Source of the DNA: Actibacterium sp. XHP0104
Lineage (GTDB): Bacteria > Pseudomonadota > Alphaproteobacteria > Rhodobacterales > Rhodobacteraceae
Direction of reading: 5' to 3'
NCBI RefSeq assembly: GCF_025751515.1
Contig: NZ_JAOWLE010000001.1
Span: 186,001 to 250,000 of the forward strand
Length of the DNA: 64,000 nucleotides
Part shown: one piece after another, positions 1-12,130 of the stretch
How positions within the stretch are numbered: position 1 is the first letter of the stretch
Layout of the letters: the number at the start of each line of letters is the position of its first letter
Notes under the pieces: model-generated
Database searches by the model: none
What the model was told of the DNA's origin: nothing
Seen by the model: the letters and a program-made list of their open reading frames with translations, nothing else
Made by a program: the position numbers and the translations under genes

Positions 1-1
1 G

Positions 2-523
2 CCCGAAGAATTCGCCGAATTGCTGGCCGAGGACGAGGCCGACCTGGCGCTGATCGCCCAGCCGCAATACCGCGACGGTATCGAGACCCTGCAATCAGAG
101 GAGCTGCCGGTTCAGGTGCTGATGGCCGATCAGGGCGTTTCGGGCCCGGTTGGCCTGGCCGAGCTGATCGACCTGGATATGGTGCTGCCGCCGGGGGCGT
201 CGGGCCTGCGGGCGCATCTGGACATGAACTTCAAACTGCAGCGCCTGCCGCTGCGCCCGGCGGTGGAAAGCGCCTATCTGTTGCCGCCTTGGGGGGCGGG
301 GGCGGGGGGGCTGGCGCCTAGCGCGCAGTTCTGCCTGGGCCCGTCCATCGATCCGCGCTGGCTGGGCGCGATCGGTGGCGTGGTGCGCCCGGTCGCGCGG
401 TTCCGCCCGGCGCGCGTCGCCCTATGCAAGCGCGAGGGGCGGATCTTGCCGGTTGCGGCCGAGAAATTCGCCATGCAACTGGGTGCGGCTTTGGCCGATG
501 CAGCGACCGCGCCGCGCGCCTAG
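2..523 (+). CDS. LysR-type transcriptional regulator, C-terminal part (5'-truncated by window edge)
   Basis: The reading frame is open through the left edge of the window, so the N-terminal DNA-binding half lies outside. The visible 173 codons look like the effector-binding (periplasmic-binding-like) domain of a LysR regulator: a [17 protein letters not shown] stretch, then a hydrophobic strand-turn pattern and a C-terminal helix ([11 protein letters not shown]). The regulated genes cannot be inferred because the divergent partner is off the window. Its stop codon shares the tetranucleotide CTAG with the stop of dtd on the opposite strand, so the two genes are fully convergent with no spacer. 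Family assignment is from pattern and moderately sure. Confidence 0.6.
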
Positions 524-957
524 AGGTCGATCCACAGCGTTACAGGCCCGTCATTGACCAGTGACACGGCCATATCGGCGCCGAACTCTCCGGTCTGGGT
601 CGGAATGCCCAAGGCGGCCAGGTCGGCCGCGAATTGTTCATACAGCGCCTTGCCCTGATCGGGCGGGGCGGCGGTCGAAAAGCCGGGGCGGTTGCCGCGC
701 GAGGTGTCTCCAGCCAGGGTGAACTGGCTGACCACCAGCGCGCTGCCGCCGATATCCAGGACCGAGCGATTCATCTTGCCGGCCTCGTCCTTGAAGATCC
801 GCAGTTTCGAGATCTTGGCCGCCATGGCGCGCGCCTGGTCGGGGCTGTCGCCCTGCATGGCGCAGATCAGGATCATCAGCCCCGGCCCGCATTCTCCGAT
901 CTTTTGACCTGCGACGTGAACTTGGGCCTGGCTTACACGTTGGACGACGGCGCGCAT
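520..957 (-). CDS. dtd: D-aminoacyl-tRNA deacylase
   Basis: Dtd hydrolyses the ester bond of D-aminoacyl-tRNAs (and Gly-tRNA-Ala), recycling tRNA and keeping D-residues out of protein; it is cytosolic and homodimeric. The 145-residue length is the family norm. Both family signatures are visible: the SQFT motif at residues 77-80 with the catalytic Thr, and the C-terminal NDGPVT at 135-140, which carries the cross-subunit Gly-cisPro that enforces chirality. The N-terminus MRAVVQRV is also typical. It is a single gene, ending head-on against a LysR gene, with the zinc-ribbon operon lying upstream on the same strand. Confidence 0.95.
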
Positions 958-1123
958 TGGGGGCTCCTGCCTTGGGGTGGTTTCCCTATTTGTCTTAGAT
1001 CAATGACCGGGGAATGAAAAATGCTCAGAAGGGAAACGTTATTCGTGGTATCATGAACAATTGATCATGGAACAAGCACCCGGCGCAGGGAGGAGAACCG
1101 GCGCTTTCATTCGTGAACAGGGT

Positions 1124-1157
1124 GCTGCGCGGCCCCGGGGCAACCCGGGGTCGCAGC
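1124..1157 (-). terminator. GC-rich hairpin after the zinc-ribbon gene
   Basis: Arms 1124-1129/1152-1157 (GCTGCG/CGCAGC) and 1133-1139/1144-1150 (CCCCGGG/CCCGGGG) stack into one strong stem with a short loop. It begins 9 bases past the stop codon of the minus-strand zinc-ribbon gene, where the long operon should end. There is no U-tract, so it may be a weak terminator or a transcript-stabilising hairpin. Confidence 0.4.
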
Positions 1158-1165
1158 AGTTAGGG

Positions 1166-2284
1166 CTATTGGTTCTGGGCGATGATATAGCCGACGATCC
1201 CCGCAACAATGGCCCCCGCCACCACGGCCAGCGCGATCTTCCAGGCCGACCAGGGCCGTTCGCCCTGCACGCGACCGGTGCGGCCGTTGACGACAAAGCG
1301 ATAGGTTTTGCCGCGGTATTTATAGGCGGCCAGCCAGACCGGCAGCAGGATATGCTTGAAGGTCACGTCCGAAATCGCGGTATCGAGCGAATGAATGCGC
1401 TGCCGGTCGCCGCCGATGTCGAATTTCACATCACGCTCGATCACCCGGTCCATCTGGGCGCGGGCTTCGGTATAGCCGTCGGTCAGTGCGACCGTATAGC
1501 CCTCGGCCTGAAAGCCTGCCAGGTATTCTGGGGTATAGGGTTCCAGCGCCGACAGATCCCAGGGCTCCAGCGCGTCGGTGAACCTTTTGGGCAGGCTGCG
1601 TGAGGCCAGAACCAGCACATCGTCGAACCAGCGCGCGACGCGGCCCGAGGCCGGGCGCCAGCGGATTTTCTGAACCTGCACTCGTTGGGGTTTGCCGTCG
1701 CGCATCACGGTGTGGGTCTCATAGTAGACCGTTCCGCGCTCGCCGCGATAGGCGGTGCGGGTGTCGGCGTCAAATGTCCAGTAAGGCACATAGATTCCCT
1801 GCATCCGCCGGCCCTTGCGGGCATAGTCCTGCAATCCGTTCGGCGCGAACCACAGCCGGCCCAGCCAGTTGGTCATCGCCTGGCGCGCGGCGGGTTCGTC
1901 CAGGGCAAAGGGCAACAGGCCCTTGGGCTTGATATGCCGGTGCGTGCCCGTATCGGTGACGATGGGTGTGGCGCAGAAGGGGCATTCGCTGGCGTGCCGG
2001 TCTTCGGTGAACTCGATCTGGGCGCCGCAGTTGGGGCATTGCGAGACGCGGGTTTCCTCGATCTCGGCCTCGGGCAGGCGGGCCTCGATCGCGGCACGGA
2101 AATCCAGCTCGCGGATGGCGCGGGGCGCGCGGGGGGCGGTGACCGGGTGTTCGTTGCCGCAATGGTCGCAAACCAGCGTGCCGCCGCCGGGCGAAAACCG
2201 CATATCCGCGCCGCATTGGTCGCAGGGAAAGCGGTGTTCCTCGATCACCCCGTTGGCAGGGGCAGGGGGCGGCATCTGGGGCAT
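1166..2284 (-). CDS. Tail-anchored protein with two TFIIB-type zinc ribbons
   Basis: A 372-residue protein of unknown function. The N-terminal third carries two rubredoxin-like zinc ribbons, with Cys at 21/24/39/42 and 83/86/101/104. A mixed alpha/beta region rich in Trp and Tyr follows, and one hydrophobic helix near residues 346-368 should anchor it to the membrane with the ribbons in the cytoplasm. Homologues are often misnamed primosomal protein N' or replication factor Y helicase; no helicase motif is present here. It is the last gene of a tight minus-strand run and starts 9 nt after the SPFH gene, so it probably works with it. The DNA-, RNA- or protein-binding role of the ribbons is unknown. 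Confidence 0.75.
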   Translation of the reverse strand: MPQMPPPAPANGVIEEHRFPCDQCGADMRFSPGGGTLVCDHCGNEHPVTAPRAPRAIRELDFRAAIEARLPEAEIEETRVSQCPNCGAQIEFTEDRHASECPFCATPIVTDTGTHRHIKPKGLLPFALDEPAARQAMTNWLGRLWFAPNGLQDYARKGRRMQGIYVPYWTFDADTRTAYRGERGTVYYETHTVMRDGKPQRVQVQKIRWRPASGRVARWFDDVLVLASRSLPKRFTDALEPWDLSALEPYTPEYLAGFQAEGYTVALTDGYTEARAQMDRVIERDVKFDIGGDRQRIHSLDTAISDVTFKHILLPVWLAAYKYRGKTYRFVVNGRTGRVQGERPWSAWKIALAVVAGAIVAGIVGYIIAQNQ

Positions 2285-2293
2285 GGGCGGAGG

Positions 2294-3403
2294 TTACGCG
2301 CCGGGCGGCGGGGGCGGCAGGATGGTGAAGAGCTGGGCCAGCTCGGCCACCTCGCTTGCGCGTTTCCAGCCGTCCTGGCCCGGCGTCCAGACATGGCTGT
2401 CGCGGGTCAGGCTGCCATCTGCGGCCATGCGGCCCATGGCGGCCTTGGAATAGGGCCCGCGCGTTTCGCCGTTTTCGGCGATATGCCAGACATGTTCGAC
2501 GGGCGGCGGCGGGGGCGGTGCGGGGTGTGCGGCTGCGGCCGGGACTGCGCCCCAGGGGCCCATCTGATGCGCCATGGCCATGCCCATACCGGCGCCGATG
2601 CCTGCGCCCATCGCGCCTGCGCCGCCGGGGTTACGGGCGGCGGCGGTCATGGCCTCGGCAGCGGAATACTGGGTGAACCGGCCCAGGTCACCCGCCATGC
2701 CCATCGAGGTGCGCTTGTCCAGTGCCTGTTCAACAGCGGGCGGCAGGCTGATGTTTTCAATATAGAATTCCGGCATGCTGAGGCCGTATTCGGCCAGCAC
2801 GGGCGCCACCTGCGCGACGATCAGCTTGCCCAGATCGGCGGTGTTCGCGGCCATGTCCAGCACCGGGATGCCGGCGCTGGCGATGACGCGGCTGAACTCT
2901 TGCACGATGATGTTGCGGATCTGATAGCTGATCTCGTCCATGGTGAATTCGCCGTCGGTGCCGACGATCTCGGTCAGGAAGCGGGCGGGGTCGGTCACGC
3001 GCGTGCTGTAGGTGCCAAAGGCGCGGATGCGCACCGGGCCGAATTCGGGGTCGCGGCAGATGATCGGGTTCTTGGTGCCCCATTTCAGATCGTTGAACCG
3101 GGTGGTGTTGACGAAATAGATCTCTGACTTGAACGGGCTTTTGAACCCGTGATCCCAATGCTGGATCGTTGTCAGGATCGGCATGTTGTTGGTTTCCAGC
3201 ATGTAGAGGCCGGGGGTGAAGACATCGGCCAGCTGGCCCTCATGCACGAACACGGCCGCCTGGCCCTCGCGCACGGTCAGCTTGGCGCCGTATTTGATCT
3301 CATGGTCTTCGCGCTCGAACCGCCAGACCATCGTGTCGCGGCTGTCGTCCGTCCAATGGATGACGTCGATGAATTCGCCGGACAGAAAATCGAAAATACC
3401 CAT
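2294..3403 (-). CDS. SPFH (stomatin/flotillin-like) protein with C-terminal GYF_2 domain
   Basis: A 369-residue protein. Residues about 30-240 read as an SPFH domain of the type often labelled 'virion core protein' (short N-terminus MGIFDFL, then repeated beta strands including VREGQAAVFVHEG and the helical SYQIRNIIVQEF stretch). A Gly/Ala/Met-rich linker (about 250-285) leads to a C-terminal GYF_2-like domain with WHIAENGETRGPYS and HVWTPGQDGW. SPFH proteins oligomerise on membranes; GYF_2 domains bind Pro-rich peptides. There is no obvious N-terminal transmembrane helix, so recruitment may rely on the neighbouring tail-anchored zinc-ribbon protein. It lies 30 nt downstream of the DUF2927 lipoprotein gene. 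Domain calls are confident; function is inferred only from context. Confidence 0.82.
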   Translation of the reverse strand: MGIFDFLSGEFIDVIHWTDDSRDTMVWRFEREDHEIKYGAKLTVREGQAAVFVHEGQLADVFTPGLYMLETNNMPILTTIQHWDHGFKSPFKSEIYFVNTTRFNDLKWGTKNPIICRDPEFGPVRIRAFGTYSTRVTDPARFLTEIVGTDGEFTMDEISYQIRNIIVQEFSRVIASAGIPVLDMAANTADLGKLIVAQVAPVLAEYGLSMPEFYIENISLPPAVEQALDKRTSMGMAGDLGRFTQYSAAEAMTAAARNPGGAGAMGAGIGAGMGMAMAHQMGPWGAVPAAAAHPAPPPPPPVEHVWHIAENGETRGPYSKAAMGRMAADGSLTRDSHVWTPGQDGWKRASEVAELAQLFTILPPPPPGA

Positions 3404-3433
3404 GGTCAGGTCCTCATACTTGGCGTGGCACGG

Positions 3434-4369
3434 TCAGCTTTCGCCGCCCATCAGGTCGGCGGCAATCTCTGGCAGGATCGGGCGCGCCTGGGCCGGGGTC
3501 ATGCCGGGGGTCAGGCGCGGGTCGTATAGCATTTGCAGCAGCAATTCATCCTGGCGCGTCAACAGGGCGAATTCCTCGTCGTCATTGAAAATCGACGGGC
3601 GCGCGCTGGGGCTGTCATTGGCCAGGCCCATGCCTTGGGCCAGTTCCTCGTGGATGCAGGTCTGGCGCAGCAGGTCGGGCTGTTCGGCGCGGATGATGGC
3701 GATGGCGCGGTAATAGGTCGAGGCATTGTCGATCGAGAAGGCATAGACCGTGCAGAAGGTCGAGCGCGACATGTCGGTGATCGACCGCACCAGCCCGTCG
3801 GTCAGCCCCGGCACCAGTTCCTTGAGCGTGGGGCCAAGCGCGCGGCGCTCGTCCTCGTGCACGAAGAACACATGGAAATTGGCGGCGGTGGGTGTGGACA
3901 GCGTGACCGGGGTGCCGGTCAGGTGAGACAGTCGGCGGGCAAAGGATGTCACCTCGGCCTGATCCTTGCGGCGCTTCTCGGCCGGGACGGTTTCGCCGTA
4001 GCTGACATTCAGGCGCACCGGGCTTTCCCAGCGGCGCAGGCGGCTTTCCGAGCGGCGCGCGACCAGAAAGCCCGAGCTGACGTCATATTCGTTATACAGC
4101 GCGATCTGGACGAAATTCTCGATCAGGTGGCGACGCGAGAACGGCGTGTCGGGGCCGCCGCCATCGGTGCGGGCCAGGCCGCGATCGACCAGATCGGCCT
4201 CGACGCGGGCGTAATAGGCCTCGAGCGCCTTGCTCTCGGCCGATTGCATCGGCGGGGCCTCGGGCCGGGCCGGGGGAATGGGGGTGGGCGTGACCATCTG
4301 GCAGGCCGACAGCCCCAGCGCAAGCGCCAGGGCGGTCAGACCGCGAAAGGGGGGTACGCCCGGCTTCAT
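3434..4369 (-). CDS. DUF2927 domain lipoprotein
   Basis: A 311-residue exported lipoprotein. The N-terminus has a basic start, a Leu/Ala-rich core and the lipobox LSAC with Cys23, then a Pro-rich linker. The rest matches DUF2927, a family common in Rhodobacterales: note CIHEELAQGMGLANDSP and the following FNDDEEFALLT segment. The HEELAQ helix recalls a zincin helix but lacks the second metal His of HExxH, so protease activity should not be assumed. It lies 3 nt downstream of telA and upstream of the SPFH gene, placing a periplasm-facing lipid-anchored partner in an otherwise cytoplasmic or inner-membrane operon. Confidence 0.8.
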   Translation of the reverse strand: MKPGVPPFRGLTALALALGLSACQMVTPTPIPPARPEAPPMQSAESKALEAYYARVEADLVDRGLARTDGGGPDTPFSRRHLIENFVQIALYNEYDVSSGFLVARRSESRLRRWESPVRLNVSYGETVPAEKRRKDQAEVTSFARRLSHLTGTPVTLSTPTAANFHVFFVHEDERRALGPTLKELVPGLTDGLVRSITDMSRSTFCTVYAFSIDNASTYYRAIAIIRAEQPDLLRQTCIHEELAQGMGLANDSPSARPSIFNDDEEFALLTRQDELLLQMLYDPRLTPGMTPAQARPILPEIAADLMGGES

Positions 4370-4372
4370 GGC

Positions 4373-5566
4373 CTAGGCCTTGGGTACGGCGGTGCCGGCA
4401 TTGTCGCCGATCCCGTCGCGGCGCGACTTGGCGGCGGCCAGGGTGTCGCGCAGCTCGGCCTCCATCTTTTTCAGCTCGATCTCGGCGGCGGCGCGGCGGG
4501 CCTTGCCTTCGTCGGCGATGGCCAGGCTTTCGTTGATCGTGTCGATCAGCGTGGCATTGGCCTGCTTGACCGCCTCGATGTCGAACACGCCACGTTCCAT
4601 TTCCTCGCGCACGATGCGGTTGGCCTGTTGCAGGTTCTCGGCGTTCGAGGTCAGCAGCTCGTTCGTCAGGTCGTTGGCGGCGCGCACAGCCTCGGCCGCC
4701 TCGCGCGAACGTTGGATCGTAACCGACTGGGCCAGCTGGGTTTCCCACAGCGGCACGGTGTTCACCAGGGTCGAGTTGATCTTGTTGACCAGCGACTTGT
4801 CGTTTTCCTGCACCAGCCGGATCGAGGGCAGCGACTGCATCGTCACCTGGCGGGTCAGTTTCAGGTCATGCACCCGGCGTTCCAGGTCATCGCGCGCGGC
4901 GCGCAGGTCGCGCAGCTCCTGCGCTTTGATCACCTGCTGGTCCTCGGGTGCCTTGGCCAGCACAGCCTCAAGCGCGGGGATGTCGGTGCTGTCGAGCTCT
5001 TTCAGCTTTTCCTCGCCGGCGGCGATGTAAAGCGCCAGCTCGTCATAGAAAGTGAGAGTCTTTTCATAGAGTTTGTCGAGGGACTTGATGTCTTTCAGCA
5101 GCTTGTGCTCATGCGTCAGCAGGTTGTCAGTGATCTTGTCGATCTGGTCCTGCACCTCTTCATAGCGGGCGACGAATTTGGCGAAAGGCGCGGCGCGGCC
5201 CAGCAGTTTTTCCCACCAGCTGCGTTCGCGGCGCACGTCCAGCTCAGAGATCGAGAAGCCGCGGATCGTGGTGACGATATTGCGCAGGCTGTCACCGGCG
5301 GGGCCGACATCCTTGTTGCGCACGTCCGCCAGCATCGACTGGCTGATCTCTTGCAGCTCGGCCTGGGCGCTGGACCCGAATTCGATGATCGAGGTGGTGT
5401 TGCCCATGTCGATCTCGTTCATGCGGGCGCGGATCTCGGCGGCGACGGGGGCCTTGGCGGTGGCCAGCGGCACGATCTCGCCGGCGGGTTCGGGCAGGAT
5501 CACGGCGGTGACTTCTTGAACCTCGGCCAGGGCCTGGGTGGCTTTTTGACGAATGGTGTCGGACAT
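4373..5566 (-). CDS. telA: TelA-family toxic anion resistance protein
   Basis: A 397-residue soluble, strongly helical protein of the TelA family (PF05816). Long amphipathic heptad-like stretches run through most of its length, for example DQIDKITDNLLTHEHKLLKDI and the Arg/Glu-rich tail AAEIELKKMEAELRDTL. TelA relatives are linked to tellurite and other toxic anion tolerance and to cell-envelope antibiotic tolerance, but the mechanism is unsettled. It sits 3 nt downstream of xpaC, the usual partner in many bacteria, and 3 nt upstream of the DUF2927 lipoprotein gene, which implies co-translation. Family call is sure; substrate is unknown. Confidence 0.88.
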   Translation of the reverse strand: MSDTIRQKATQALAEVQEVTAVILPEPAGEIVPLATAKAPVAAEIRARMNEIDMGNTTSIIEFGSSAQAELQEISQSMLADVRNKDVGPAGDSLRNIVTTIRGFSISELDVRRERSWWEKLLGRAAPFAKFVARYEEVQDQIDKITDNLLTHEHKLLKDIKSLDKLYEKTLTFYDELALYIAAGEEKLKELDSTDIPALEAVLAKAPEDQQVIKAQELRDLRAARDDLERRVHDLKLTRQVTMQSLPSIRLVQENDKSLVNKINSTLVNTVPLWETQLAQSVTIQRSREAAEAVRAANDLTNELLTSNAENLQQANRIVREEMERGVFDIEAVKQANATLIDTINESLAIADEGKARRAAAEIELKKMEAELRDTLAAAKSRRDGIGDNAGTAVPKA

Positions 5567-5569
5567 GGG

Positions 5570-6442
5570 TTACTCTCCACTCTGCGGGCGCAGGCCCTCA
5601 CGCTGCAATCTTTCGCGCAGCAGTTCAATCTCGACATCGAGATCAGATTTGTCTTCCAATAGCATTTGCCGGGTGCGGGCGGCGAAATTCTGCTCAAGAT
5701 CGGTCAGCAGGGCCTCGTAATCGGCACGCGCCTGCGGGTCGCGGGTGCGGCCATAGACATCGGCGAACTTGATCGTCGCGTCGCGCGCGCCCAGCAGATA
5801 GACCACCAGGAACTTGCGCGCCGAGGTCAGGTCGCGCGGGTCTTCCTCGACGCTGCGGAACATGTCGCGGGCGGTTGTTTGAAAGCCTTCGACCCGCGCG
5901 GCCAGCTGTCGGTCGCCCGCGCGGGTGATGGCGTCGCGCATGGCGGTCAGGTGTTTCTCGGCCTCGTCGATCACGCGGGCGACGCGATCTTGCTGAAAGG
6001 TATCGACGCCCTCCATCCCCTTGTCGCGCATCGGGTCCAGGCCAAAGGCAAAGCCGTGCAGCACCGTGCCCAGCACCGCCAGGATCACCGGCGCGATTGA
6101 CCCGCCACCGGCGGCATAGCTGGCGACGAACAGCCCGGTACCCGTCAGCACCGCGCCAAACAGCTTGCGCGGGATGGCGGGGCGGCGGGCGATCTTGCGG
6201 GCGTGATAGGCGTCTTCGGCCTTTAGCCCCTCACGGGTCAGCCATGCGGCCAGAACAAGCAGGCCAAAGGCCCCCAGATTGGCGGCCAGCCCCACGGCAT
6301 CGGATGTAAAGGCCCGCACCAACAGGGGGAAGGGCGCGAAGAACAGGAAATTCACCCGCCCGCCCGCGCGGCTGCGGCGCTTGCCGTGATAGGGGTGGGC
6401 CCGGTCGGGGCTGAACTGTCCGCCGAAACGCTGGGCCATCAC
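5570..6442 (-). CDS. XpaC-like membrane protein (5-bromo-4-chloroindolyl phosphate hydrolysis family)
   Basis: A 290-residue protein. The N-terminal part holds hydrophobic helices near residues 30-65 and 90-130, separated by a basic cytoplasmic loop (REGLKAEDAYHARKIARR). The C-terminal half is a charged helical domain with AARTRQMLLEDKSDLDVEIELL. This layout fits the XpaC family, named for an X-phosphate phenotype in Bacillus that does not establish an enzymatic activity. Pairing with TelA is the main family hallmark and is present here (3-nt gap). Its start codon overlaps the stop of a 27-residue membrane peptide (TGATG), so translation is probably coupled to it. Confidence 0.8.
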   Translation of the reverse strand: MMAQRFGGQFSPDRAHPYHGKRRSRAGGRVNFLFFAPFPLLVRAFTSDAVGLAANLGAFGLLVLAAWLTREGLKAEDAYHARKIARRPAIPRKLFGAVLTGTGLFVASYAAGGGSIAPVILAVLGTVLHGFAFGLDPMRDKGMEGVDTFQQDRVARVIDEAEKHLTAMRDAITRAGDRQLAARVEGFQTTARDMFRSVEEDPRDLTSARKFLVVYLLGARDATIKFADVYGRTRDPQARADYEALLTDLEQNFAARTRQMLLEDKSDLDVEIELLRERLQREGLRPQSGE

Positions 6443-6522
6443 ATGCCCCCCGTCGCGGCGACGTAAAAGATCAGCGCCAGCAACAGGAAGAACGCCAGCT
6501 TTTGCAGGCCTGTCTCACTCAT
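6439..6522 (-). CDS. 27-residue single-pass membrane peptide overlapping xpaC
   Basis: A short open frame of 27 codons reads MSETGLQKL, then a run of aliphatic and aromatic residues (AFFLLLALIFYVAA), ending TGGM. It is preceded by a G-rich stretch (GGATCGGGGG) that could serve as ribosome binding site. Its stop overlaps the xpaC start by 4 nt, a classic coupling arrangement. The composition is that of one transmembrane helix with no extra domain. No homologue is recalled, so function is unknown; it may be a subunit or a translation leader for XpaC. Coding status rests on the overlap, hydrophobicity and operon position. Confidence 0.5.
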   Translation of the reverse strand: MSETGLQKLAFFLLLALIFYVAATGGM

Positions 6523-6577
6523 GCATACCCCCGATCCTTTCGGTCATTAGGCCCCCGCCGCAGCTGTGTGGCAAGGG

Positions 6578-7399
6578 TCAGCGGTGCGTCTGTTCGGCGC
6601 GGCGTTCGGCATTCAGCTTGCGCTGATATCCCGATTGCAGGAATTCCACCGCGAACAGCACCACCACAGCAAAGTAGAAGGTGGTTTTCGACATGGGAAT
6701 CAAGTCGTAGCCAAAGATTTTAAGCTGCAACGTGTCGTCATGCATGGCATGTGCCGCCGCCGGGCCAGCCTCGCCCAACAGCACGACGCCGACGATCAGC
6801 AGGATGAACAGGCCCAGAACCTCGTACATGCGGTTCTTTTGAATGAAGGCCGTCACCCCGTCGGCCATCGCGATCATCGCCGCGCCGGACAACAGGATTG
6901 CCGTCGCAAGCACCGGAAAGACATCGGTGATCGCCAGCGCCGACAGGATCGAGTCGAAGCTGAAGATCAGGTTCATCGTCACGATCAGCGCAATCACCTG
7001 CAAGCCGCTCTTGCCGCTCTTGCCCTCGATGTCGTGGTCCAGATGCTCGACCGACAGCATGTGCGAAATCTCTTTCACCGCCGTGTAGATGATGAAGATG
7101 CCCCCGATGATGAACACGATCGTGGAAAAGTTCACCCCGCCCTCAAGAATACCGGGCCAGTTCAGCACGAAGAAGGGCTCTGACAGCGCCGAGATCAGCC
7201 GGATCATCACGAACAGCAGAACGACACGCAGCGCGACCGCGATGATGATGCCCCAGAACCGCACCGCCTTTTGCTGGGCCAGCGGCGCGCGCTGGCTTTC
7301 GATGCTGATGTAAAGCAGGTTGTCAAACCCAAGAACCGCCTGCAGGAAACACAGCATCACCAGGTTTCCGAGGTTCTCTAAGGTCAGTAGATCGGCCAT
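6578..7399 (-). CDS. TerC-family integral membrane protein
   Basis: A 273-residue polytopic protein of the TerC/Alx family (about seven helices). The conserved acidic motifs inside helices are visible: FDN at residues 25-27 (AVLGFDNLLYIS) and FDS at 148-150 (MNLIFSFDSILSALAI). TerC relatives act in metal (Mn2+, tellurite) and secreted-protein metalation responses. I chose the ATG at 7399 because GAGGG lies 7 nt upstream; an in-frame ATG 39 nt earlier lacks a ribosome binding site. It lies 55 nt upstream of the small peptide/xpaC/telA run on the same strand, so it may be the first gene of that operon. Specific substrate is unknown. Confidence 0.88.
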   Translation of the reverse strand: MADLLTLENLGNLVMLCFLQAVLGFDNLLYISIESQRAPLAQQKAVRFWGIIIAVALRVVLLFVMIRLISALSEPFFVLNWPGILEGGVNFSTIVFIIGGIFIIYTAVKEISHMLSVEHLDHDIEGKSGKSGLQVIALIVTMNLIFSFDSILSALAITDVFPVLATAILLSGAAMIAMADGVTAFIQKNRMYEVLGLFILLIVGVVLLGEAGPAAAHAMHDDTLQLKIFGYDLIPMSKTTFYFAVVVLFAVEFLQSGYQRKLNAERRAEQTHR

Positions 7400-7462
7400 C
7401 GTCACGCCCTCATGAATTCGTTTTCCTAACAAAGACATGATGGGCGGTGGGCGGCAAGGTGC

Positions 7463-8263
7463 CTATCGGCGGGGTTTTCCCCGTTGCGGCCGGGTGACGC
7501 GGGGTTTCGGGTTGGGGGCAGGTTTGAATTCGGTGTCCAGGCCCAGCTGGTCGCGCATCACCCGCGATCTGACTTCCTCAACCTCGCCCGCTTTCAGCTC
7601 GCCCAGGCGGAACGGCCCGTAAGAGACCCGCAACAGCCGGTTCACCACCAGGCCCACGGCCTCCATCGCGCGGCGGATCTCGCGGTTGCGGCCCTCGCGG
7701 ATGCCGATGGTCAGCCAGGCATTGGCGCCCTGCTGACGGTCCAGCACGACCTCCATCGGCTGGAACCGCTCGCCCTCGATGGTGATGCCCTTGCGCAGCG
7801 GGTCCAGCGTGGCATCCTCGGGCGTGCCCTTGACGCGCACCCGGTACTTGCGCAGCCAGCCGGTCGAGGGCAGCTCGAGCCGCCGCTTGATTTCGCCGTC
7901 GTTGGTCAGCAGCAACAACCCCTCGGAATTGAGGTCAAGCCGCCCCACCGACATCACCCGCGGCATGCCTTCGGGCAGGTTCTCGAACACGGTCGGGCGG
8001 CCCTTTTCGTCGCGCTCGGTGGTCACCAGGCCGGTAGGCTTGTGATAGAGCCACAGCCGGGGCGGTTCGGCCTCGGCGATGGGCTTGCCATCCACGGCGA
8101 TGCGGTCGCGCGCCGTGACGTTCAGCGCGGGGCTGTCGATAACCTTGCCGTTCACGCTGACACGGCCGATCTGAATCATACGCTCGGCCTCGCGGCGGCT
8201 GGCGACGCCGGCCCGGGCCAGAACCTTGGCGATGCGATCGCCCGGAGGGGTATTTGTGCTCAT
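7463..8263 (-). CDS. rluB: 23S rRNA pseudouridine synthase (RluB/RsuA family)
   Basis: A 266-residue RsuA/RluB-family pseudouridine synthase. An N-terminal S4 RNA-binding domain spans about residues 8-55 (RIAKVLARAGVASRREAERM). The catalytic core has the family motif GRLDLNSEGLLLLTNDG at 107-123 with Asp110 as the nucleophile. The C-terminus is Arg/Lys-rich and disordered (RVTRPQRGKPRR), as in many RluB proteins. The likely target is U2605 of 23S rRNA, but RsuA- and RluE-type specificity cannot be excluded by eye. It is divergent from tadA across a 75-nt gap. Confidence 0.88.
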   Translation of the reverse strand: MSTNTPPGDRIAKVLARAGVASRREAERMIQIGRVSVNGKVIDSPALNVTARDRIAVDGKPIAEAEPPRLWLYHKPTGLVTTERDEKGRPTVFENLPEGMPRVMSVGRLDLNSEGLLLLTNDGEIKRRLELPSTGWLRKYRVRVKGTPEDATLDPLRKGITIEGERFQPMEVVLDRQQGANAWLTIGIREGRNREIRRAMEAVGLVVNRLLRVSYGPFRLGELKAGEVEEVRSRVMRDQLGLDTEFKPAPNPKPRVTRPQRGKPRR

Positions 8264-8338
8264 AGGCCCCCTTTACGCCTTTGCGCGGCCAAGCGAAAGC
8301 GCCTTGCGCAAGGCGCGGGCAGGGGGCAAGAACGACAC

Positions 8339-8791
8339 ATGACGCGCTTTACCAGCCATATGGATATCGCCTTGGCCGAGGCCCGCGCCGCTGCCGCACG
8401 CGGCGAGGTGCCCGTGGGCGCGGTGATCGTGGCGCCCGATGGCAGCGTGCTGGCCCAAGCCGGCAACCGCACGCGCGAACTGAACGACCCCACCGCCCAT
8501 GCCGAAATCCTTGCCATTCGCGCCGCCTGCACGGCGCTGGGGTCGGAACGGCTGCCGGGCTGCGATCTCTATGTCACGCTCGAACCCTGCCCGATGTGCG
8601 CCAGCGCCATCAGCCAGGCCCGCATTCGCCGTCTTTATTACGGCGCGGCCGATCCCAAATCGGGCGGCGTGGCGCATGGCCCCCGCGTGCTGTCCCACCC
8701 GCAAAGTCACCACCGCCCCGAAATCTACGACGGCATCGACAGCGCCCAGGCCGAGGCCCTGCTGAAAACCTTCTTCGCCACCCGCCGCTAA
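8339..8791 (+). CDS. tadA: tRNA-specific adenosine deaminase
   Basis: A 150-residue zinc-dependent deaminase that converts A34 to inosine in the wobble position of tRNA-Arg(ACG). The zinc site is complete: His54-Ala-Glu56 (TAHAE) and the PCPMC motif with Cys84 and Cys87. The N-terminal stretch and GEVPVGAVIV are typical. The frame is open far upstream, but ATG 8339 fits the family N-terminus and lies just past the divergent rluB start. The C-terminal SGGVAHGPRV matches alphaproteobacterial TadA proteins. A neighbouring-family guanine or cytosine deaminase is a less likely alternative. Confidence 0.92.
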   Translation: MTRFTSHMDIALAEARAAAARGEVPVGAVIVAPDGSVLAQAGNRTRELNDPTAHAEILAIRAACTALGSERLPGCDLYVTLEPCPMCASAISQARIRRLYYGAADPKSGGVAHGPRVLSHPQSHHRPEIYDGIDSAQAEALLKTFFATRR

Positions 8792-8800
8792 CCCGCCTGG

Positions 8801-8826
8801 CTTCTTCTTCGCGAAAATATCCCGGG
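8801..8826 (-). repeat. Dispersed intergenic repeat, copy 1
   Basis: Read on the minus strand the core is GGGATATTTTCGCGAAGAAG plus a further AAG. A second, near-identical copy lies at 14068-14092 on the plus strand. Both copies sit just after gene ends and beside GC-rich inverted repeats; here TTGGCC-GCA-GGCCAA and AGGGGC-GGC-GCCCCT follow within 40 bp. I recall similar GGGATATTT...GAAGAAG elements in Rhodobacteraceae intergenic DNA. Function unknown. Confidence 0.55.
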
Positions 8827-8860
8827 GTGAATTGGCCGCAGGCCAAGAGGGGCGGCGCCC

Positions 8861-9553
8861 CTAAAGCTCGATTGCCTCCAGCACCTGCGGTTCGATCACA
8901 TCCACCCCCGGCAGGCTGTCCTTCAGCACCTCGGCCGATTGTGCCAAAATCGGGAAGGTGCGGTAGTGGCAGGGGATGACGGTCTTGAAATCAAAGAACT
9001 CGCGCGCGGCATAGGCGGCGCGGCGCATGTCCATGGTGAAATGCCCGCCCGCGCACAGGATGCCGATATCGGGGGCGTGCAGGTCGTTGAGGATCTTCAT
9101 GTCGGCCATCACGTCGGTGTCGCCCGAGAAGTAGATCGTGCGATCCTCGCCCGCGATCATGAACCCGGCCTCGGCACCGGCATAGACCGGACCCTGCGGC
9201 GAACTGATCGAGGACGAATGCACCGCGTTCACCATGGTGATGCGCAGGTCGCCCAGTTGAATCGTGCCGCCCTTGTTGAAGCCCACGGTCGCGATGCCCT
9301 CGGCCTCTTCCCAATGCGACATCAGGTCGTAGATACCGACCACCGGCACATCCAGCTCGCGCGCCAGCGCCAGCGTGTCGGCGGAATGGTCGCCATGCCC
9401 GTGGCTGAGCAGAATGGCGGTGGTGCCGGCGATTGCCTCGGCGCGGCGGTCCATGGGGAACATCGGGTTGCCGGTCAGCCAGGGGTCAACCAATAGCACC
9501 TGGTTCCCGATCTCGATGCGAAAGCCGGAATGGCCCAACCATGTGATTTTCAT
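8861..9553 (-). CDS. UPF0173-type metallo-beta-lactamase-fold hydrolase
   Basis: A 230-residue metal-dependent hydrolase of the UPF0173 (YtkL-like) group. The N-terminus MKITWLGHSGFRIE and the metal motif HGHGDHS at residues 51-57 are diagnostic of the metallo-beta-lactamase fold; LVDPWLTGNP and the later FSGDTDV are the other family signatures. The physiological substrate is not established. ATG 9553 is chosen over an upstream in-frame start because GGAGG lies 7 nt before it. The gene is transcribed alone, divergent from gatC and convergent with tadA. Confidence 0.85.
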   Translation of the reverse strand: MKITWLGHSGFRIEIGNQVLLVDPWLTGNPMFPMDRRAEAIAGTTAILLSHGHGDHSADTLALARELDVPVVGIYDLMSHWEEAEGIATVGFNKGGTIQLGDLRITMVNAVHSSSISSPQGPVYAGAEAGFMIAGEDRTIYFSGDTDVMADMKILNDLHAPDIGILCAGGHFTMDMRRAAYAAREFFDFKTVIPCHYRTFPILAQSAEVLKDSLPGVDVIEPQVLEAIEL

Positions 9554-9694
9554 CTTTGCCTCCTGTTTTTCGCGCATATCGTATCATTCGCGCGGCGTCT
9601 GTCACCCGTGATTGCGGGGCGGGGCGGCCTTGCCCTTGCGGCCTGCGGATTGCGGCGCTAAACCCGTCGCGATCTCTTGGACGGAGCCTGAAAC

Positions 9695-9982
9695 ATGTCG
9701 ATCGACATTGATACCGCCCGGCGCGTGGCCCATCTGGCCCGCATTGCCGTGGATGAAAAAGACCTGCCGGCGCTGGCGGGCGAGCTGTCGAACATTCTGG
9801 ACTTCATGGAGCAGCTGAACGAGGTCGATGTCGAGGGCATCGAGCCGATGACCAGCGTCACCCCGATGCGGCTGAAACGGCGCGCGGATGTGGTGACCGA
9901 CGGCGGCATGCAAGACAAGATCCTGTCGAACGCGCCCGACGCGCGCGAGGGCTTTTTCGCGGTTCCGAAGGTGGTTGAATAA
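9695..9982 (+). CDS. gatC: Asp-tRNA(Asn)/Glu-tRNA(Gln) amidotransferase subunit C
   Basis: The 95-residue GatC subunit of the GatCAB amidotransferase, which stabilises GatA and helps anchor the GatB tail. The sequence begins with the usual [14 protein letters not shown] helix and continues with the [13 protein letters not shown] and EPMTSVTPM motifs. An ACGGAG stretch precedes the ATG. Its stop overlaps the gatA start (TAATG), so the two subunits are coupled. gatB is not in the window; in Rhodobacterales it is commonly encoded elsewhere. Length and motifs fit fully. Confidence 0.95.
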
Positions 9983-11463
9983 TGTCCGAGCTGTCCAAAC
10001 TGACGATTGCCGAGGCCCGCGATGCGATGCGCAAGGGCGATGTGACCTCGGTCGAGATCACCGAGGCCTGCCTGGCCGAGGTCAACGCCGCCGACGCGCT
10101 GGGCGCGTTTGTGCACAAGACGCCCGAGATCGCTCTGGATCAGGCCCGCGCCGCCGATGCGCGGATCAAGGCGGGCGATGCGCCGGGCATGTGCGGCATT
10201 CCGCTGGGCATCAAGGATCTCTTTTGCACCAAGGGCGTCGACAGCCAGGCCGCGTCGAACATCCTCAAAGGCTTCAAGCCCGAATATGAATCGACCGTGA
10301 CCAGCCAGCTGTTTGGCGCCGGCGCGGTGATGCTGGGCAAGCTGAACATGGACGAATTCGCCATGGGCAGCTCGAACGAGACCAGCGCCTATGGCAATGC
10401 CGTCAACCCGTGGAAGATCGACGATCGCCAGCTGACCCCGGGCGGCAGCTCGGGCGGGTCGGCTTCGGCCGTGGCCGCCGATCTGTGCCTGGCCGCGACC
10501 GGCACCGATACCGGCGGCTCGATCCGTCAGCCCGCCGCCTTTACCGGCATCGTCGGGCTGAAACCGACCTATGGCCGCGTGTCGCGCTGGGGCACGATCG
10601 CCTTCGCCAGCTCGCTGGACCAGGCCGGGCCGATGACCAAGACCGTGCGCGATGCGGCGATCATGCTGCAGGCCATGTCGGGCCATGACCCCAAGGACAG
10701 CACCAGCGCCGATCTGCCGCTGCCCGATTTCGAGGCCGCGCTGACCGGCGACATCAAGGGCAAGAAGATCGGCATTCCGCGCGAATACCGCATGGATGGC
10801 ATGCCCGAAGAGATCGAAACCCTGTGGCACGAGGGTGCCGAGATGCTGCGCGCCGCGGGGGCCGAGATCGTCGATATCTCGCTGCCGCATACGAAATACG
10901 CGCTGCCCGCCTATTATGTGATCGCGCCCGCCGAGGCGTCGTCGAACCTGGCGCGCTATGACGGGGTGCGCTATGGCCACCGCGCCAAGCTGGCCGCCGG
11001 TGACGGCATCGTGCAGATGTACGAAAAAACCCGCGCCGAGGGTTTCGGCCACGAGGTGCAGCGCCGCGTGATGATCGGCACCTATGTGCTGTCGGCCGGT
11101 TTCTACGACGCCTATTACAACCGCGCCCGCAAGGTGCGCGCGCTGATCAAGCGCGACTTTGACCAGGCCTTTGCGGCCGGTGTCGACGCGATCCTCACGC
11201 CCGCCACGCCGTCGTCGGCATTCGGTCTGGGCGAGATGGCCGAGGCCGATCCGGTGCAGATGTATCTGAACGACGTGTTCACGGTGACGGTCAACCTGGC
11301 CGGCCTGCCGGGGATCTCGGTTCCGGCCGGGCTGGACAGCCAGGGCCTGCCGCTGGGCCTTCAGCTGATCGGGCGCCCCTGGGCCGAGGATGATCTGCTG
11401 AACACCGCCTATGCGCTTGAGAGTGCCGCCGGGTTTGTTTCCAAGCCCGCGAAATGGTGGTAA
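9982..11463 (+). CDS. gatA: Asp-tRNA(Asn)/Glu-tRNA(Gln) amidotransferase subunit A
   Basis: The 493-residue glutaminase subunit of GatCAB. It releases ammonia from glutamine and passes it to GatB for transamidation of misacylated Glu-tRNA(Gln) or Asp-tRNA(Asn). The amidase-signature Ser-cisSer-Lys triad is visible: Lys78 ([10 protein letters not shown]), the GGSSGGS loop at 154-160 and nucleophile Ser180 in [11 protein letters not shown]. The N-terminal [10 protein letters not shown] and the C-terminal [12 protein letters not shown] are typical. Start overlaps the gatC stop by one base. The call is secure; other amidase-signature enzymes are unlikely next to gatC. Confidence 0.96.
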
Positions 11464-11494
11464 ACCGGGCAAAACGACAAAGAGCAGGTCACTG

Positions 11495-12130
11495 ATGCGT
11501 TATCCCGTTGCGATCCTTGCCGTTCTGGCCGCCGCCGCTTGTGAGCCCGAGATCCCGGATTCGGGCCGGGGCGTGGGTTTTGGCGATTATGACAGCTATG
11601 AGGCCCAGCGCGAGGCCCGCCTGCAAGGCGACACCACGCTGGACGAGGTGAACGTTCTGCCGCCCGAGACCATGGGCACCGCCGACGCGACCCCGGTGCA
11701 AGAGCCGCTGCCGGCCCGCACCGCTGTGGTCGATGTCAACAATCCCGGTATCTCGGACGAGCAGGATTTCAGCGCCGTGTCGGCCCGCGAAAGCATCGAA
11801 AGCGATGCCGCGCGGCTTGAGGCGCAGCGCGAGCAATATGTGGTGATCGAACCCACCGCGCTGCCGTCGCGTGTGTCGACCGGGCCGAACGTGGTGGAAT
11901 ATGCGCTGAGCACCTCGAACCAGGTGGGGCAGAAGGTCTATCGCCGTCTGAACCTGCTGGGCGGCTCGCAACTGGCGCGGAACTGTTCGAAATACGCCTC
12001 GGCCGATCTGGCGCAGCAGGCGTTTCTCAAGGCCGGCGGCCCCGAGCGTGACCGGCTGAACCTTGATCCCGATGGCGACGGCTTTGCCTGCACCTGGGAT
12101 CCGACCCCGTTCCGCAGGGTGGCGAACTAG
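11495..12130 (+). CDS. Lipoprotein with C-terminal Excalibur-like calcium-binding domain
   Basis: A 211-residue exported protein. The signal peptide ends in a lipobox (AAAAC) with Cys16, so it should be lipid-anchored. The middle is acidic, Thr/Ala-rich and probably disordered. The last 50 residues resemble an Excalibur domain: NCSKYASADLAQQAF, then LDPDGDGFACTWDP, where the DxDxDG loop and two Cys match the calcium-binding, disulfide-linked pattern. It lies 31 nt after gatA and 5 nt before a peptidoglycan amidase gene, so a cell-wall role is plausible but inferred. I start at ATG 11495 because upstream residues do not look exported. Confidence 0.7.
   Translation: MRYPVAILAVLAAAACEPEIPDSGRGVGFGDYDSYEAQREARLQGDTTLDEVNVLPPETMGTADATPVQEPLPARTAVVDVNNPGISDEQDFSAVSARESIESDAARLEAQREQYVVIEPTALPSRVSTGPNVVEYALSTSNQVGQKVYRRLNLLGGSQLARNCSKYASADLAQQAFLKAGGPERDRLNLDPDGDGFACTWDPTPFRRVAN

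Follow-up and report, generated by a model that had tools for sequence, protein, structure and literature searches.

A conserved XpaC–TelA and SPFH–zinc-ribbon gene run of Rhodobacteraceae, probably an envelope stress operon of the Psp/Ydj kind

A 64,000-nucleotide stretch of Actibacterium sp. XHP0104 (Rhodobacteraceae; contig NZ_JAOWLE010000001.1, positions 186,001–250,000), here called the window, carries a run of seven minus-strand genes at 7399–1166. The products are a TerC-family protein, a membrane microprotein, XpaC, TelA, a DUF2927 lipoprotein, an SPFH protein with a GYF domain and a double zinc-ribbon protein (ZnR). The constant parts of the run are two pairs, XpaC–TelA and SPFH/GYF–ZnR, in that order. 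The run is probably a Psp/Ydj-type operon for stress at the inner membrane (envelope). That it forms one membrane or envelope stress unit is well supported by the gene order, which is conserved within and beyond the family Rhodobacteraceae, and by the sigma-W listing of the Bacillus counterparts.

TelA is present in 89 of 100 genomes of the window's family. From these 89 strong TelA places, 40 were chosen by hand and examined, and genes on the TelA strand were counted. XpaC is found at all 40 loci, SPFH and ZnR at 37 each, DUF2927 at 36, rluB at 29, dtd at 25 and TerC at 9. A second set was chosen by SPFH from named genomes. It consists of the best 80 of at least 591 relatives and is biased to close ones; the 70 loci longer than 17 kb were used. 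SPFH is present in all 70, ZnR in 69, XpaC, TelA and DUF2927 in 66 each, dtd in 57, rluB in 54 and TerC in 12. According to both sets, TerC is an optional add-on to the run. In the 70 loci, the XpaC–TelA gap is at most 84 nucleotides (nt) and the TelA–DUF2927 gap at most 98 nt, and the SPFH–ZnR gap reaches 1.9 kb; large negative gap values in this set are due to long open reading frame (ORF) calls. A proline run is located at the C-terminal end in 77 of 81 SPFH proteins. Two XpaC-like genes stand in tandem ahead of TelA at five loci (L059, L060, L071, L130 and L140). At six loci (L052, L054, L060, L065, L068 and L076), a gene for a small membrane protein, cytochrome b561-like by eye, is inserted between SPFH and ZnR. 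It was rejected as a core part, being present in some relatives only. At L083 (11052–12184) the ZnR frame is in two pieces, possibly a pseudogene or a sequencing error.

The order was also followed in 240 genomes of the class Alphaproteobacteria. XpaC was detected in 15 genomes, TelA in 20 (expectation value E of 1e-8), a strong Band_7_1 match (>200 bits) in 11, DUF2927 in 35 and PspA in 36. Of the 11 genomes with a strong Band_7_1 match, 8 keep the order XpaC–TelA–SPFH–ZnR: the window, two others of its family (G022 and G154) and five from four other families (L026, L027, L028, L031 and L033). TelA occurs in 10 of these 11 genomes, with 0.92 expected (hypergeometric P of 1.4e-11, shared ancestry ignored). 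XpaC occurs in 9 of the 11, and all 15 genomes with XpaC have TelA. Among the blocks seen, DUF2927 stands beside the four genes in the window's family only.

In the phylum, Band_7_1 was matched at E of 1e-30 or better in 53 of 398 genomes. Outside the class, 20 of 25 SPFH places were examined for neighbours. ZnR adjoins SPFH in 17 of the 20, with 9 strong and 8 weak matches (20–34 bits); at L089 the contig stops just behind SPFH. The GYF domain is absent from the SPFH relatives of L092 and L102. At L091, L097–L102 and L105, the neighbour of SPFH is a protein of about 485–640 amino acids (aa) with merely a weak zinc-ribbon match. Some loci of this second neighbour type have spermidine-synthase-like (c4) or oxidoreductase-like (c3) genes nearby, as judged by eye. 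The all-against-all clustering of neighbour ORFs contains spurious overlapping frames, and it was used solely for this second type.

The likeness to the Psp/Ydj system lies in the SPFH–ZnR pair. YdjI belongs to the SPFH proteins and lacks a membrane segment, YdjG combines two zinc ribbons with a membrane segment, and YdjH carries a TPM domain (PMC8581546, PMC11237479, PMC9239133). In Bacillus subtilis, PspA reaches the membrane only with YdjI, YdjG and YdjH (PMC8581546). The run has the same trait, a Band_7_1 SPFH gene adjoining a gene for a double zinc-ribbon membrane protein, and both are present in 37 of the 40 hand-chosen relatives. Like YdjI, the window SPFH protein has no membrane segment. 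ZnR is related to the middle gene of an SPFH–ZnR–TPM trio of Enterococcus (tblastn 26% identity, 88% coverage, E of 4e-26). Relatives of ZnR were found in 12 plasmid records (five of Paracoccus, three of Vibrio and one each of Pseudorhodobacter, Comamonas, Tsukamurella and Enterococcus), and an SPFH gene adjoins the relative in the examined records of Tsukamurella, Vibrio, Paracoccus and Comamonas. In contrast to pspA-ydjGHI, the run has neither pspA nor a TPM gene, and it has XpaC, TelA, DUF2927 and the microprotein; at the end of its SPFH protein, GYF and a proline tail stand in place of a zinc finger. The window's own genome (99.71% complete) gave no PspA match (PF04012) at E of 0.001, and the gene for its one TPM (YdjH-type) protein lies on the same contig at a distance of about 600 kb.

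The XpaC–TelA pair has envelope stress counterparts as well. Both names commonly stand under 'tellurite', and we know of no agreed mechanism for either protein. Adjacent genes for PF10112 and PF05816 are found in 40 of 40 relatives, as in xpaC-yaaN of B. subtilis, llmg_1115/1116 of Lactococcus lactis and lmo1966-1967 of Listeria. These pairs differ from the window pair, which is joined to SPFH–ZnR and DUF2927 and has the microprotein ahead. The gene yaaN is named together with TelA (PMC12791056). The counterparts are controlled by sigma-W in Bacillus and by CesSR in Lactococcus. The CesSR regulon of L. lactis includes xpaC-telA1 and answers membrane-protein overproduction, under which xpaC rose 10.3 fold and telA1 3.44 fold; the double deletion was partly impaired (PMC3139573). 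The enterococcal xpaC is 7-fold up in a liaR mutant (PMC10269926). In sigma-W tables of B. subtilis, xpaC-yaaN is listed as core and pspA-ydjG-ydjH-ydjI and yceC-D-E-F-G-H as secondary; the last operon, which unites yceF and yceH, is additionally under sigma-B and sigma-M (PMC3498285). Thus, parts that are split over three Bacillus operons of one regulon form one run here. We take yceH, in the yceF operon of B. subtilis, to be a TelA homologue.

A mechanism may be outlined for such an operon. The tail-anchored ZnR, of the YdjG kind, would hold the soluble, presumably oligomeric SPFH–GYF protein, of the YdjI kind, at the inner face of the membrane. Neighbouring SPFH subunits may be cross-linked through their GYF domains and proline tails. 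The membrane partner of TelA would be XpaC, together with the microprotein. TelA, a long helical protein, would take the part of Bacillus PspA and be brought to sites of membrane damage or blocked export. In the periplasm, the DUF2927 lipoprotein may bind peptides or misfolded exported proteins, and report to, or assist, the inner part. TerC, where present, would add metal supply at the translocon. In this outline we infer the physical complex, the PspA-like role of TelA and the sensor role of DUF2927. We hold it as a tentative possibility, clearly weaker than the assignment to envelope stress, that the run is an undescribed envelope stress machine of Alphaproteobacteria, in which TelA–XpaC replaces PspA on a YdjI/YdjG-type platform, with a microprotein of 27–70 aa and a pseudo-metzincin lipoprotein as peptide sensor, scattered Bacillus sigma-W parts being fused into one operon.

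Several results weigh against the assignment to one stress operon of the Psp/Ydj kind. XpaC–TelA lacks a same-strand SPFH–ZnR pair nearby at 3 of the 40 loci (L053, L055 and L069), and SPFH lacks same-strand XpaC–TelA nearby at 4 of the 70 (L149, L177, L182 and L184). Outside the class, neither XpaC nor TelA is near SPFH–ZnR in any of the 20 neighbourhoods, and TelA is found anywhere in the genome in 4 of the 25 SPFH genomes (21 without). PspA is not clearly avoided: it occurs in 3 of the 11 SPFH genomes of the class, with 1.65 expected, and avoidance was dropped as a pattern. The ZnR relationship to the Ydj set was established with the Enterococcus gene. PF10112 gave no match in the B. subtilis control genome, and for this reason the Bacillus XpaC belongs to the family by naming alone. 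The TelA model is of modest confidence (pLDDT, a per-residue confidence score, of 74.7). It shows two long helices, and the Protein Data Bank entries listed for it are BAR domains and helical bundles of a generic sort. PspA is not among the listed entries, which says nothing against a hairpin like that of PspA or ESCRT-III; the structure alignment (A3) was made from every second relative (38), leaving out 3 over-long frames, with 36 rows. The window has no match to the upstream element described below by weight matrix, which bears on the regulation of the run. Among the literature matches listed, no experiments on genes of the run in any Rhodobacteraceae were found.

The separate occurrence of the pairs also bears on partnership. 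In 25 arbitrarily taken comparison genomes, TelA is present in 2, both of the window's class, and thus in 0 of 22 outside the class. TelA as an obligate partner of SPFH–ZnR outside the class is unsupported by the 4 of 25 genomes. According to the neighbourhood and genome counts, SPFH–ZnR is therefore an old pair with changing partners, and XpaC–TelA is its partner in part of Alphaproteobacteria. It could be that two old pairs merely lie side by side by synteny and do not act together. The pairs do occur apart, and the rluB and dtd flanks are often kept too in the 40 loci. However, the same four-gene order recurs in the four other families with no rluB or dtd match in the stretches read, and TelA and SPFH occur together in G012 and G148 although the two pairs there are not neighbours. 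We regard synteny without joint action as very improbable. The earlier note saw all seven genes as one membrane stress system. The conserved order and the sigma-W listing speak for this, but TerC is optional and the pairs are separable.

The layout of the run is collected in Table 1. The inter-gene gaps of 55, −4, 3, 3, 30 and 9 nt were recomputed exactly and are identical to those first reported for the seven genes. The family names TerC, XpaC, TelA, DUF2927 and SPFH/GYF are confirmed by Pfam scores of 75.4–361.4 bits. The description of the last product as a tail-anchored double zinc-ribbon protein is likewise borne out by four CxxC pairs (residues 21, 39, 83 and 101) and a single C-terminal segment; the first ribbon scores 33.4 bits against a Pfam cut-off of 27.1, and the second matches solely below the cut-offs.

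Table 1. Genes of the run and features within them, in window coordinates.
Feature	Position	Strand	Basis and remarks
TerC-family membrane protein	6578–7399	−	Pfam TerC 125.7 bits; seven hydrophobic segments; alternative ATG at 7438
27-aa single-span membrane microprotein	6439–6522	−	ORF overlaps XpaC start by 4 nt
XpaC (PF10112, Halogen_Hydrol) membrane protein	5570–6442	−	101.4 bits; two hydrophobic segments detected and C-terminal soluble part
TelA (PF05816)	4373–5566	−	361.4 bits; helical, two long helices predicted (125–205, 208–287)
DUF2927 lipoprotein	3434–4369	−	214.3 bits; predicted metzincin (matrixin-like) fold
EExxQGxGLxND stretch (residues 241–252), at metzincin zinc-motif position	3614–3649	−	DUF2927 alignment
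SPFH protein (Band_7_1, PF13421) with C-terminal GYF and proline-rich tail	2294–3403	−	341.4 bits; no hydrophobic segment
GYF_2 domain (residues 306–355) of SPFH protein	2339–2488	−	75.4 bits; related solved GYF 7z3c
Double zinc-ribbon protein (ZnR), tail-anchored, YdjG kind	1166–2284	−	Pfam, hydrophobicity, homology to Enterococcus gene
Hydrophobic C-terminal anchor of ZnR (residues 345–371)	1172–1252	−	One hydrophobic segment in ZnR

The names TerC, TelA and 'toxic anion resistance' suggest a resistance cassette for metals or oxyanions (tellurite, Mn, Zn), and the earlier note had tied the families to tellurite and metals as well as to envelope stress. The TerC proteins of B. subtilis act at the Sec translocon, where exported enzymes receive Mn from them (PMC10550928); by a paper's title, terC of Klebsiella pneumoniae is tied to tellurite and zinc resistance. 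The Listeria mutant of lmo1967 (TelA) is 2-fold more sensitive to tellurite, but its nisin sensitivity shifts more, being 4-fold higher (Collins 2010, as cited in PMC12791056). TerC is missing from 31 of the 40 and 58 of the 70 neighbourhoods. TerD-type (TerD/E/Z) genes were found neither among the seven products nor in the two flanking genes, the rest of the genome not having been searched. No Rfam family matched window positions 1–12000 or the module in 7 relatives, the only hits there being RNase P and a tRNA in one relative, away from the module; hence a metal riboswitch (yybP-ykoY) linked to TerC was rejected. The window TerC belongs to the same Pfam family as MeeF/YceF and MeeY/YkoY of B. 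subtilis and has seven hydrophobic segments, but it scores below the cut-offs that NCBIfam sets for the subfamilies YkoY, YjbE and Alx, and it is optional in the operon. Nothing found supports tellurite or metals as the main role, and a metal cassette is quite unlikely.

The DUF2927 lipoprotein of the run was modelled with a pLDDT of 89.6. In the VIA structure comparison, the model aligns to catalytic domains of matrix metalloproteinases (MMPs), the best with Z of 12.2 at 2.5 Å over 148 residues, and all 50 listed matches are MMPs or the MMP-like karilysin. The top Foldseek match is 3shi (E of 1.7e-3), with none at 1e-3 or better. The lipobox cysteine, Cys23, is conserved in 74 of 76 sequences. 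The structure alignment (A2) was made from every second relative (38), leaving out 4 over-long frames, with 35 rows. In the active-site helix, Glu241, Glu242, Gln245, Gly248, Asn251 and Asp252 are invariant in 76 of 76 sequences, all from this operon; the zinc motif HExxHxxGxxH is missing from them, and EExxQxxGxxN stands in its place in all 76, the window and 75 relatives. Of 20 further DUF2927 members fetched, the second copy of the window genome included, 18 were alignable. EExxQ is present in 12 of them, HExxHxxG occupies the same columns in 4 (L246, L247, L248 and L250), and the other 2 show neither motif. The motif register is fixed by these members with HExxHxxG. Proof of metzincin identity from sequence alone failed: hhalign against 20 M10 domains gave no match (probability 0.1–0.2). 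To judge from the model, the motif register and the members with HExxH, the family appears metzincin-like; in the branch to which the operon proteins belong, the residues at the three zinc-ligand positions appear to have changed and the catalytic-type Glu to have been retained. A second DUF2927 gene of the window genome (C11:380136–380741) is likewise of the EExxQ type (HEELAQALGPLND), so the family is not exclusive to the operon. A search of openly licensed (CC0/CC BY/CC BY-SA) PubMed Central papers gave none that names DUF2927.

These features also bear on a third explanation, in which the run assists quality control or assembly in the Sec/FtsH pathway of membrane proteins. The SPFH protein would cap a protease or the translocon in the manner of HflK/C–FtsH, DUF2927 would act in the periplasm and TerC would metalate exported enzymes. 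MeeF, the TerC protein encoded by yceF in B. subtilis, co-purified with SecY, SecDF, FtsH and the flotillins FloT and FloA (PMC10550928). The CesSR response to membrane-protein overproduction and the protease-shaped prediction for DUF2927 fit this explanation too. However, no FtsH, HflK/C or Sec gene is found among the seven genes and the two flanking ones, and the zinc-ligand residues of DUF2927 are replaced. We consider a Sec/FtsH aid unlikely, somewhat less so than a metal cassette, and keep the assignment to envelope stress.

A microprotein encoded before xpaC appears to be conserved and coding, and apparently is new here. At many loci of the family, a short hydrophobic ORF precedes XpaC, with 27–29 aa, or about 60–70 aa and a second hydrophobic stretch. 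The 27-aa ORF of the window gave no Pfam match. A profile built from 19 peptides is partly circular because these were chosen for their position before XpaC. Against 71,989 open segments of 15–150 codons from L024–L191, it gave 107 matches at E up to 1; 99 adjoin a called XpaC start, 7 lie within 700 nt and 1 is elsewhere (E of 0.24). A near match is present in 99 of the 116 loci with a called XpaC (>60 bits). At E of 0.01, no match was obtained in five blocks of other families. In the 44 nearest pairs, 144, 53 and 284 substitutions fall at codon positions 1, 2 and 3, and 235 changed codons are synonymous and 165 not. Such a bias is characteristic of a translated gene.

In part of the family, an upstream element (CTTCCCCCTAGCAA, then CCTAA.TTT about 18 nt on) precedes the microprotein, in the region before xpaC (loci within L107–L186 and L024–L083). 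The pattern TTCCCCCTAG-N13-18-CYTA occurs 29 times before the microprotein and is absent from the rest of the 2.92 Mb of loci. Among 100 whole genomes, 19 have it, once each, and 18 of these 19 sites sit 1.16–1.23 kb before the TelA domain, the exception being G287. The reversed pattern, used as a control, matched 16 times in 14 genomes, so only position is telling. By position, the element appears nearly private to the operon. With a weight matrix trained on the 29 sites, 39 of 141 loci score above every off-site best. In L119 the element separates TerC from the microprotein, an argument for placing TerC of this locus outside the core unit.

At the borders of the run, an rluB-like gene (8263–7463) on the same strand ends 24 nt upstream of the alternative TerC start, and dtd (957–520) follows 208 nt downstream. 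The scan for minus-strand terminator-like sites was at chance level (5 found, 6.1 expected); it gave none between the genes of the run and one within xpaC (6273–6261). The promoter scan, also at chance level (2 found, 1.4 expected), gave one minus-strand site within telA (5412–5385).

The joint function was described in the earlier note as, to its author's knowledge, not described. No title or abstract opening on this gene set appeared among the matches listed from openly licensed PubMed Central papers; the parts do have precedent, however, SPFH with zinc ribbons being the ydjI/ydjG kind studied with PspA. A 2012 comparative genomics study of Ter-dependent stress systems by Anantharaman, Iyer and Aravind may mention some of the links. 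The conserved order of TelA and XpaC with a YdjI/YdjG-type pair, far from Bacillus, leads to a concrete hypothesis for TelA as a PspA-like effector of a membrane scaffold. This hypothesis may be used in Rhodobacteraceae, which are easily manipulated. The run also offers two parts open to experiment, the microprotein and the pseudo-metzincin lipoprotein; no description of either was found in the papers searched, the microprotein not having been looked up by name. If true, one operon would link the Psp, CesSR/sigma-W and TerC literatures.

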